DNA of 64,000 bases from the NCBI GenBank assembly GCA_032027085.1, contig JAVSMS010000001.1, positions 1,256,332 to 1,320,331 on the forward strand. The letters run 5' to 3'. Origin of the DNA: Pseudorhodoplanes sp. (GTDB taxonomy: Bacteria; Pseudomonadota; Alphaproteobacteria; Rhizobiales; Xanthobacteraceae). The translations under genes and the position numbers were made by a program. Of the stretch, positions 14,386-16,843 are shown one piece after another. Within the stretch, counting starts at the first letter, position 1. Every line of letters begins with the position of its first letter. The notes beneath the pieces are model-generated. The model did no database searches. It was not told the DNA's origin and saw only the letters and a list, made by a program, of their open reading frames with translations.

Positions 14386-14623
14386 GTTCGCCCCTCCTCG
14401 GGGCTTGAGAGCGGGCGGGGGCCAACGGGTCCCGCAGGCGAGCTCCATAACGGGCCGAGCGAGCGGCCCGCTGCACCCTGTCAGCGGCGGTGAGGCGAAG
14501 CGGCCTCCCCCTCTTGAAACGCCAAAATCTTTTGCCAAATTTTTTTGCCGCCGGGCGGTGTGCGGTGCCCGGCGCGGACCGGCAGGGTGCCGGTTCGCAT
14601 CTGCGAAGAAAGGAGGACAATCC
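14386..14623. other. Intergenic region between argB and the DUF-less gene at 14624
   Basis: Apart from the GC hairpin just after argB this stretch has no gene. Around 14510-14555 there is an A+T-rich patch with a run of seven T (14539-14546), unusual for its surroundings. It could belong to a termination region for argB or a promoter region for the next gene, but no clear -10/-35 pair is visible. Confidence 0.4.
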
Positions 14624-15019
14624 ATGAACCGCGGCCATGACGAGCGTAAGGGCCGTAATCGCGACGCCGCATTCGACCTTGATGTCTTGTTGCACCCCGC
14701 CAGGGCCTATTCGCAGCCCGACGATGTGGTCCGCGATCCGGACCTCACCCTTTATGAAAAGCGCGCCATTCTGTCGTCCTGGGCGCCCGACGCCTGCGCC
14801 GTCGAAGCCGCGCCTGGCCTGCGCGAAATTCCCGGCAATGGCGGGGTCGTTTCCTTTGACGAGGTGATGGACGCGTTGCCCTCTCTCGACGACGAATTCC
14901 ATTCGCGCACGCGCGGCGTTGTGCGTCCGAAGCGGCGGCCGATTACCGAACGTCTGGCGGCACGCTGGCGCAGCCGTTCCGGCGACGGCGGCCTCGGATC
15001 GCCGCAGCCGGCGCGTTGA
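14624..15019 (+). CDS. Conserved-looking hypothetical protein, 131 aa
   Basis: A 131-residue soluble, charged protein with no recognised domain. It begins MNRGHDERKGRNRDAAFDLD, has a compact middle (HPARAYSQPDDVVRDPDLTL, then YEKRAILSSWAPDACAVE) and ends in an Arg-rich tail. A near-consensus ribosome-binding site, AAAGGAGG, sits seven bases before the ATG and fixes the start. The YEKRAILSSWASDACAV-type motif is common in small rhizobial proteins annotated only as hypothetical. A 33-residue membrane peptide gene follows 12 bases later and probably shares the transcript. Confidence 0.75.
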   Translation: MNRGHDERKGRNRDAAFDLDVLLHPARAYSQPDDVVRDPDLTLYEKRAILSSWAPDACAVEAAPGLREIPGNGGVVSFDEVMDALPSLDDEFHSRTRGVVRPKRRPITERLAARWRSRSGDGGLGSPQPAR

Positions 15020-15133: not shown

Positions 15134-15144
15134 GTGAGCTTTTT

Positions 15145-15261
15145 CCTCTCCCGTTTACGGAGAGGATGGCAAGCACCCGTAGGGGGTAAGCCGGGTGAGG
15201 CGCATTGCACGACCCCTCACCCGGCTTAGATCACCGATGTCTCGCTGCGCAGCGGGAGAGG
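15145..15261. repeat. Long imperfect palindrome (intergenic repeat, CTCTCCCG family)
   Basis: The element starts with CCTCTCCCGTTTACGG and ends with the inverted CGCAGCGGGAGAGG. Inside it, AAGCCGGGTGAGG and CCTCACCCGGCTTAG form a second long inverted pair around a short loop. Elements with this wording are scattered in many Hyphomicrobiales genomes (recalled, not checked). It lies after the small-peptide gene and may end transcription in both directions. Confidence 0.65.
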
Positions 15262-15347
15262 TGAATCACTACCGATTCATTTTTCAAACAGCCAACGCTC
15301 CGCCGCCCGTATTGTTTGAGGCGCCGGGATCGCCTTATTCCCTTTGT

Positions 15348-15788
15348 CCCTCTCTCAATGAAAGAGGGGGATGGTGCGCCGAGTGACGCAACCAAGTCCG
15401 TGTAAAGACGACCTCCTCTCGAAGGCCGCCGCGTCTCTCGACGCACCATCGCGGCGTCTTCACTGCAACGCCGGGCCGCGCTTTGTCCGGAGCCGCACTG
15501 TGCGGACGGATCAGCCAGCTCCTGGCAGAGGCCCATCAGTGGCCTCGGGCGGAGCCCCGACGTGGCCCGAGTGCCGGTTTGCGAGACCGGCCCGCGGGCG
15601 CCGCACCGGCCGAGGCCCGGAATTACCGGGCGCCGTCCAGGAAGGCCGCGCGGCGCATCTCCGCCGCGCTCCGTCCTTCGTCCCGCCTGCACGACGCCTC
15701 GCGACAAGCGCCCCAAGCGAAGCCGGAATCCGGCTTCGCCCTCTCAAGCTGCCGAACTCGCAAACATGCGAGTTCGGATGGACGAGGT
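15348..15788 (-). ncRNA. Candidate structured non-coding RNA, about 440 nt
   Basis: On the minus strand a TTGACA-17-TATAAG promoter (15795-15823) reads into a stretch packed with perfect hairpins and lacking a credible gene. In transcript order these include an 11-base stem with a 4-base loop (15752-15777), a 10-base stem with a 3-base loop (15717-15739), an 8-base stem with a 6-base loop (15648-15669), a 6-base stem (15615-15631) and a long-range pairing of 15370-15378 with 15442-15450. A final 9-base stem lies at 15348-15368. No T run follows the last stem, so the 3' end is approximate. It lacks the landmarks of RNase P RNA, tmRNA and SRP RNA. Identity unknown. Confidence 0.6.
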
Positions 15789-15794
15789 GATGTG

Positions 15795-15823
15795 CTTATA
15801 GTCCTATCTAGGAATATTGTCAA
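15795..15823 (-). promoter_or_regulatory. Consensus sigma-70 promoter for the candidate ncRNA
   Basis: Read on the minus strand: TTGACA at 15823-15818, a 17-base spacer, and TATAAG at 15800-15795. Transcription would start near 15788 and run directly into the hairpin-rich element. It is the closest match to the housekeeping consensus noticed anywhere in the window. Confidence 0.75.
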
Positions 15824-16089: not shown

Positions 16090-16755
16090 TCAGTTCGGCA
16101 TCACATAGGCGTACACGCGGCCGCGCGGATAGGTCGCTTCCGCGACGCGGCGATTGTGATTGCCGGAGATGATGATCGGATTGCCCGATTCATCGACGCC
16201 GGAGACGATGCCGACATGGCCGCCGCGCTTGCCGCGCGACATAACCGCGATGGCGCCGACCTGCGGGCCGGAAATGCGGCGGCCGTAGGAAGCGAAAGAG
16301 CTCGCCATGTCGGAGCCGGTGCCGTTACGCCCGGAACGTTCCAGAACCATGTTCATGAAACGCGCGCACCACAGTGCGCTCTTGCCGGTCGGATTGGTGC
16401 CGATATAGCGGCGCGCTTCGCTGACAAGTCCGCTGCCGCCGAAGCTGCCGAAGGAGCCGACGCCGGTGGTGGCGGCAGCGTAGGAATTGCGCGCGGCGCG
16501 CGCGGCCCGCCGCGACGCAGTGCGCGAAGCACGTGATGCGGGCACCGCCGCGACATTGCCGGGCGTGGCATAAAGCTGGCGGGCCTCACCGGCGAGAGCC
16601 GTTGCCGCCGGTGCCTGCATGACCTGCTGCACCTGATGACGCACGATTTTCTTCTTGTAGCGGCGCGCTTCCGCCGGAGCCGAGAAAAGCACGGCTCCAC
16701 AAAGTCCAAACGTACATGCCGCCCAAATGGCGGTCTTTTTCGAGTTGAGATTCAT
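16090..16755 (-). CDS. Secreted TIGR02594/CHAP-like putative peptidoglycan amidase
   Basis: A 221-residue protein with a signal peptide (residues 1-30, ending SAPAEA) and an Arg/Ala-rich linker (30-110). The C-terminal domain shows the NlpC/P60-CHAP fold residues: Cys130 in SALWCARF, His180 in GGHVGIVSG and Asn199 in SGNHNRR. These match the TIGR02594 family of cysteine peptidase-like proteins, which are thought to cleave peptidoglycan cross-links. The start at 16755 was chosen because the signal peptide begins there; the frame extends further upstream without sense. A good terminator follows. Confidence 0.8.
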   Translation of the reverse strand: MNLNSKKTAIWAACTFGLCGAVLFSAPAEARRYKKKIVRHQVQQVMQAPAATALAGEARQLYATPGNVAAVPASRASRTASRRAARAARNSYAAATTGVGSFGSFGGSGLVSEARRYIGTNPTGKSALWCARFMNMVLERSGRNGTGSDMASSFASYGRRISGPQVGAIAVMSRGKRGGHVGIVSGVDESGNPIIISGNHNRRVAEATYPRGRVYAYVMPN

Positions 16756-16834
16756 CAAATCGTCCCGTGTTGTTGTCCCTCGCTCGCGCGGACCCAGACG
16801 CCCCCACCGGGCTGCACGCGAGAACGCCACTGAG

Positions 16835-16843
16835 TTATCCACA
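16835..16843 (+). other. Single perfect DnaA-box sequence
   Basis: TTATCCACA matches the DnaA-box consensus exactly and lies about 90 bases upstream of the amidase-like gene. There is no cluster of such boxes, so it is not an origin. It may be chance or a DnaA-regulated site. Confidence 0.3.

Follow-up and report, generated by a model that had tools for sequence, protein, structure and literature searches.

The window analysed here is a 64-kb stretch of a Pseudorhodoplanes genome. An element at about 15274-15823, on the minus strand, lies between a 204-aa ORF (14405-15019, plus strand) and a 250-aa ORF (16090-16842, minus strand); this copy is called c1 below. The original prediction of a structured RNA gene at this locus is real, and the element is larger than reported. 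The reported end is too short, since the conserved unit extends to about 15304 in all ten copies of the own genome and to about 15274 in some. The predicted promoter is located as claimed on the minus strand, with TTGACA (15818-15823), 17 nt and TATAAG (15795-15800), and the spacer of this region (15795-15823, assigned from the sequence and from promoter scores over 60 copies) carries TTCCTA..TAGGA. A promoter scan demanding T at the last -10 position leaves out TTGACA-17-TATAAG. From the promoter spacing, the transcript would be expected to start near 15788. The 461-nt strand has a fold of -266.9 kcal/mol, compared to -220.6 ± 5.3 for 100 shuffles (z -8.7, 0/100 as good).

All features of the element are on the minus strand. 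The 5' domain begins with the 5' strand of P1 (CCTCGTCC, 15780-15787), whose 3' strand lies at 15678-15686. P1 encloses P2, a hairpin of the form GGCGC-loop-GCGTC (15692-15712), and both were placed by the 5'-domain alignment and the sequence. The P2 loop holds the palindromic hexamer TCGCGA (15699-15704), which is proposed as a kissing-loop dimer contact. The start of P2 and the 5' strand of a proposed long-range helix share 15708-15716, where TTGGGG is a weak member of the GRGGG class of strands defined by a CCCTC partner test. Between P1 and P2 is an inserted REP-like hairpin pair (15717-15779) that is outside the core RNA and occurs only in c1 and c2 (2/10 copies). The 11- and 10-pair hairpins of the original prediction are present (15752-15777 and 15717-15739), but they belong to this insertion and are missing from 8/10 full-length copies. 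The P3 hairpin with its GGAGA loop (15644-15672) has compensatory differences between own copies, by eye, and is not seen in many copies from other genera.

Downstream of P3, core helices 1-2 (15608-15634) are defined by covariation, and core helices 3-8 (15451-15607), in which helix 6 pairs 15556-15563 with 15468-15475 and helix 3 is the closing helix, by model R1 and alignment A3 (see below). Helix D (GATGGTGCG...CGCACCATC, 15370-15450; sequence and copy comparison) is the nine-base pairing noticed originally, and the pairing of 15370-15378 with 15442-15450 is exact. The CCCTC strand, the putative long-range partner, lies at 15348-15370 together with a local hairpin E as alternative pairing (partner test and copies). 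A candidate 3' H-type pseudoknot with the A-rich linker TCAAACAATA follows at 15306-15335, and its stems change in step between copies, by eye. The variable 3' tail (15274-15305, ...GGCTGTTTGAAAAATGAATC) is common to c1-c4 and c8 of the ten own copies, and tail ends in other genomes are similar. Adjoining the element, window positions 15140-15270 contain CTCTCCC...GGGAGAG inverted repeats with CTCACCCGG, another type of intergenic repeat.

The locus had been described as free of any credible protein gene. Some ORFs do overlap it, but their open stretches are no longer than in shuffled sequence in the four copies tested (76, 155, 82 and 174 of 300 shuffles had open stretches as long). An antisense frame with 77-142 stop-free codons in the ten copies is ordinary for this composition and was rejected as a protein gene. 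A protein-like codon pattern, named beforehand as evidence against an RNA, does not appear, as mismatches are even over the three codon positions in six copy pairs. An Rfam 15 scan gave no match over the element at the gathering cut-off, and the best sub-threshold match was P17 (10.1 bits vs 45, E 4.4); over the whole window only two tRNAs reach the cut-off. Twenty homologous loci were likewise without an Rfam match, and with the scan of the element this rules out a known RNA family. RNase P RNA, tmRNA and SRP RNA, whose landmarks had been reported missing, have no family model match over the element. Cargo of a phage or plasmid was also rejected because searches of plasmids and phages gave no match, and viral contigs held no exact match to the motif used, which contains TCATGA only. 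The open-licence literature yielded no recognised description of this RNA.

The own genome carries at least 14 dispersed copies, of which 10 are near full-length and 4 belong to a second subfamily. The ten include the window copy, and the others are 78-97% identical to it over the aligned part. Model R1 (196 positions) was built from these ten copies and, for that reason, sees near relatives only; it has 14 matches in the own genome, the weakest with E 0.005. The second-subfamily copies, at 567, 2554, 3018 and 3380 kb, were found with model R2 and have the same anatomy on reading. In the own-copy alignment the unit starts at the promoter and ends at about CAAACAATACGGGCG; five copies have a tail that finishes with GAAAAATGAATC or a like sequence. 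The unit is 423-434 nt long in the eight copies that lack the insert. The 68-nt insert matches only the c1 and c2 sites in the own genome, besides one short match to its own palindrome. L025, a locus from another genus, also has a REP-like insert (about 1390-1470 of L025), placed just where the window copy has it in the 5' domain; the first hairpin is the same as in the window and the second is different. Hairpin pairs like the insert are found free in other loci. By its sequence, the insert is a REP-like hairpin pair.

Covariation is already present among the ten own copies. Alignment A3 adds 60 foreign loci from 16 genomes, giving 67 distinct sequences; these loci were chosen from the listed R1 matches, mostly the best-scoring ones, and were fetched before the loop was examined. 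Covariation extends to each of the eight helices in the 196-position core. Standard pairs make up 97.8% of cells, compared to 82.1% in shuffles, and 34/44 pairs are changed on both sides, compared to 21. Double-changed cells number 383 (97 in shuffles), and sliding the 3' partners by 1-3 columns leaves 32-45% paired. An alignment fitted to a model favours the structure, yet does not create the double changes; relatedness can inflate such counts. The compensatory base changes on which the original prediction had staked its RNA are therefore present in 34/44 pairs, and together with the lack of an Rfam match they support a gene for a structured RNA that belongs to no known family and would be transcribed from its own promoter. 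In the 5' domain, 4/5 pairs of P1 are changed on both sides, and P2 has one of five pairs changed on both sides, two on one side and two invariant. The number of double-changed pairs in P1 and P2 together does not exceed that of shuffles (5 vs 4.3, reached by 218/500), though the double-changed cells (85 vs 26) and the score do. An alternative hairpin over the P2 bases also covaries, with 87% of cells paired. Since this hairpin competes for the same bases, the P2 loop may not always be exposed, and P2 may represent one of the states of a switch.

A sigma-70-type promoter is retained in most copies despite unrelated flanking DNA, as judged by consensus scores upstream of the 5' domain. A score of at least 9/12 is found in 44/60 copies and 6.4% of shuffles, and a score of at least 10/12 in 37/60 copies and 0.8% of shuffles; in 42 of the 44 the aligned 5' domain begins 4-8 nt after the match. 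In c2 the spacer is largely different, yet this copy retains TTGACA and a TATA-type -10 with 17 nt between them. The element looks built for transcription. TTCCTA is present in many spacers, in some of them forming a dyad with TAGGA (e.g. window 15795-15823, L098, L133 and L135), and CCTATC often follows the -10. It is possible that these motifs form the binding site of one common regulator. A different upstream region, GTTACGCACGC or CTTATCCCCGC and then a CTTAT-like stretch, was seen by eye in 12/60 copies. This type, also written AAAAAGTTACGCACGC or CTTATCCCCGC with the CTTAT-like stretch next, replaces the sigma-70-type promoter at L117, L119, L120, L124, L125, L137, L143-L145, L148, L149, L153, L277 and L305, and in genomes G012, G111 and G025 it occurs alongside sigma-70-type copies.

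The GRGGG strand before P2 pairs with CCCTC after helix D. The mean run score is 6.44, compared to 6.03 ± 0.09 for re-dealt strands (0/300 reach it), in the 53/70 copies that could be used; in the others, which include c1 and c2, one of the two strands could not be placed. Telling cases are CAAAGGG/CCCTTTG and GTGAGGGACG/CGTCCCTCAC. In many copies the CCCTC strand can form the local hairpin E, by eye. Another candidate contact, between the loop stretch TGAGGCGTC and the 3' GGCGCCTCA, was dropped as it fails in Tardiphaga-type copies (by eye). The 3' end likely folds into an H-type pseudoknot with an A-rich linker in those copies where it can be recognised. A generic pseudoknot scan reaches its threshold in 51/70 copies and proves nothing alone, because 15/70 shuffled copies also pass; the A-rich linker is present in 28/70 of the best scan matches, counted by eye. 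In copies from different genera the 3' end carries GGCTGTTTGAAA and then TTGAATC or a like sequence, also in copies with no visible pseudoknot (e.g. window 15274-15290, L131, L132 and L157).

The apical loop of P2 contains a 6-nt palindrome in 70/70 copies, with eight different sequences and no exception so far. These 70 copies were found by the core model alone. Among the 60 that aligned to R2 the palindromes are TCATGA (34), TCGCGA (9), TCCGGA (8), TCTAGA (5), ACCGGT (2), CTCGAG (1) and CTTAAG (1), and among the ten missed by R2, whose stems were assigned by eye, they are CTGCAG (4), ACCGGT (4), TCCGGA (1) and TCATGA (1). The P2 loop of L128 is 17 nt long. Shuffled loops contain a palindrome in 6/60 on average and 16 at most, and control loops, taken from further hairpins of these RNAs, have 0/70, 1/70, 3/21 and 0/1; two of the three palindromes in the 3/21 set, TCATGA and TCGCGA, may stem from P2 loops that were misplaced. 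An earlier automatic choice of P2 by stem strength mostly took other hairpins, and its palindrome count of 27/70 is not the one used here. Of 39 further loci found with R2 (L276-L314), all 31 checked hold one of the eight palindromes; these belong to subfamily II of the own genome or to other genomes, loops of this kind are favoured by R2, and only the eight known palindromes were sought. The 80 listed loci of a pattern scan were fetched with a TCATGA-containing motif and are left out of the count.

In one genome, 13 copies have six loop types between them. The loop type changes at least 24 times on a rough 69-tip tree, compared to an average of 32 with shuffled labels (minimum 29 in 200); tree error and gene conversion can inflate the count of changes. 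Adjacent nucleotides of the loop covary and cannot pair within one chain, and so the palindrome is read as a kissing-loop homodimer contact, suggesting that the RNA molecules pair with each other. The same covarying-palindrome argument for self-contact has been made for OLE and GOLLD (PMC12286853). The paralogues could even be self-recognising RNA particles, with the P2 palindrome as an address that permits assembly with the own kind only and that changes by paired substitutions, an idea we hold tentatively and at somewhat below even odds.

The family had been suspected to be multi-copy and lineage-specific, and in addition to the many copies of the own genome it is found in parts of the order Hyphomicrobiales, often in several copies. 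R1 has matches in 67/149 genomes of the same family, covering 30/47 genera, with 1 to at least 17 matches per genome, 17 being the number scored. Counting the own genome, R2 has matches in 15/347 genomes of the order, which represent six families and 10/130 genera, with up to 16 per genome; in a class-wide sample of 241 it detected only the window's own genome. These genome searches are lossy over 40 genomes (few candidates scored per genome, strict filters), and their copy numbers and absences are lower bounds. The pattern scan of named genomes found at least 120 stretches, and among the 80 listed all names are in or compatible with Hyphomicrobiales. Carriers among the matches listed are Tardiphaga, Rhodopseudomonas, Pseudorhodoplanes, Pseudolabrys, Afipia, Microvirga, Enterovirga, Bauldia, Methyloceanibacter, Rhizobium sp. 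MAGs and other MAGs; the nearest named relative among them is a Pseudorhodoplanes MAG. The suggested link to Bradyrhizobiaceae holds for Tardiphaga, Rhodopseudomonas and an Afipia MAG, but 13 listed genomes of the large-genome genus g25 have no R2 match.

Both flanks of the window copy recur at L097, a locus in another species, with 83.5% and 80.1% identity. The RNAs of L097 and c1 are 66% alike, whereas within genomes c1 and c2 are 98% alike and L097 and L098 90%. Both flanks are also common to L099 and L106, and to L150 and L152. Since positions are shared yet sequences are genome-specific, it appears that loci persist and that copies are largely homogenised within a genome by gene conversion. 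This conversion is incomplete, because L099 and L103, which belong to two other genomes, cluster with c1-c5. In L112 the left flank is that of c3 and the right flank that of c2, and the flanks of c4 have their best matches on separate contigs in G092, where paralogous genes are a possibility. Empty-site comparison at two loci (c8 and c4) was clean at neither; in G071, a relative of the window's genus, c8 is absent along with neighbouring DNA. Copies c2, c3 and c4 (883, 3965 and 4608 kb of the own genome) and L112 seem to lie at joints of recombined flanking DNA. rRNA operons can lie at recombination joints, and the copies of this family likewise seem to mark rearrangement joints.

We give a probability of about 0.7 to a new family of independently transcribed, self-associating ornate RNAs encoded by multiple genes per genome. 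The copies, the conserved promoter, the covarying helices and the palindrome rule can be read off the sequences; transcription, dimerisation and a role in trans as a scaffold or RNP are what we infer beyond them. The locus would be the gene for a large structured RNA, about 430 nt without the insert and about 490 nt here, driven by its own sigma-70-type promoter and kept in many separate copies that gene conversion would homogenise. The RNA is predicted to fold into a 5' domain (P1 and P2), a multi-branched core, the long hairpin D, a long-range helix between the 5' and 3' parts and probably a 3' pseudoknot. Two molecules would join via the palindromic P2 loop, as in the HIV-1 dimer initiation loop or in OLE and GOLLD RNA, and dimers of their own would be expected for paralogues with other palindromes. 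Either the dimer or a higher assembly may serve in trans as an RNA scaffold or RNP at high dosage.

The main rival is a selfish, non-autonomous dispersed element (MITE- or REP-like) that by chance contains a promoter and foldable DNA, and in which a transposase or recombinase would recognise the hairpins and palindrome as DNA. The many copies, which sit in both orientations in mostly unrelated flanks, suit this explanation, as do near-identical copies such as c9 and c10 (98.9%) and copies that are absent at orthologous sites (c8 in G071) or placed at rearrangement joints. The exceptions among the flanks of the ten own copies are about 210-270 nt common to c3 and c10 upstream and short pieces of 34-61 nt in a few pairs. 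Against mobility, the ten copies have no shared terminal inverted repeat or convincing target duplication, the best matches being chance-like, 5-7 nt long and each different, and several copies are at positions shared between species. Neighbouring genes were compared by clustering 758 ORFs from 150 loci, some overlapping, and reading the 25 widest clusters, with names assigned by eye. This revealed no partner gene, as the widest cluster (ABC-type ATPases) reaches 8/150 loci and no neighbour is common to more; other clusters are orthologous neighbourhoods or common gene families, by eye. A transposase-like ORF cluster, which would favour the selfish element, is near 3/150 loci (by eye). Compensatory changes over 67 distinct sequences, the -35 and spacing kept in c2 around a largely different spacer, and the negative plasmid, phage and viral-contig searches also speak against such an element, and we regard it as unlikely, at about one chance in five. 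A trans-acting regulatory RNA, a sponge for mRNA or protein with the conserved GAGGCGTC beside the palindrome as working part and not the dimer, is slightly less likely still: GAGGCG in P2 is strongly conserved and Bradyrhizobium sRNAs are described in 2-4 imperfect copies, some with predicted promoters (PMC5082802), but the adjacent hexamer that changes only between palindromes is left unexplained, and the element is much larger than those RNAs as judged by their size markers.

The ornate self-associating RNA can also be set against known systems. The Br-REP1/Br-REP2 repeats and BjsR sRNAs of Bradyrhizobium are likewise repeated or multi-copy sequences between genes that form RNA in related bacteria (PMC5082802). 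The Northern blot legend for BjsR gives size markers of 60-160 nt (PMC5082802), and by these markers the element is set apart from BjsR. With 3 mismatches or fewer allowed, the Br-REP1 and Br-REP2 consensus sequences have no match in the window. REP and BIME elements have a short palindromic unit of about 100 bp or less, whereas the unit here is 423-434 nt, and the insert alone is REP-like. The lack of terminal inverted repeats and target-site duplication in the ten own copies also differs from a MITE or insertion-sequence derivative. The HIV-1 dimer initiation site has a short stem and a loop of about nine nt with a six-nt palindrome. P2 resembles it in this layout, with no sequence kinship claimed, and here the gene is bacterial.

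OLE, GOLLD and ROOL are large, highly structured, homo-oligomeric bacterial RNAs, and the new family shares with this type extensive covarying secondary structure and a covarying palindrome in a hairpin loop. Parallels are OLE L9.3 and GOLLD L21a, reported as symmetric kissing loops with covarying palindromes (PMC12286853). In contrast to OLE, GOLLD and ROOL, the new family has no Rfam or phage match, has many gene copies per genome with concerted evolution, and uses eight loop palindromes, up to six per genome. It may thus behave like the ornate self-assembling RNAs, while being a member of none of these families.

To our knowledge, bacterial RNAs of this size and complexity are few, and natural homomeric RNA complexes are fewer. 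This one has apparently escaped classification in an order with well-studied bacteria, with at least 17 copies in one genome. Its self-pairing signature spans more palindromes than the OLE and GOLLD cases described in PMC12286853. Because many natural variants carry different loop palindromes, self-assembly and its specificity are directly testable. The family also supplies the chromosome with rRNA-like repeats, and may shape its rearrangements.
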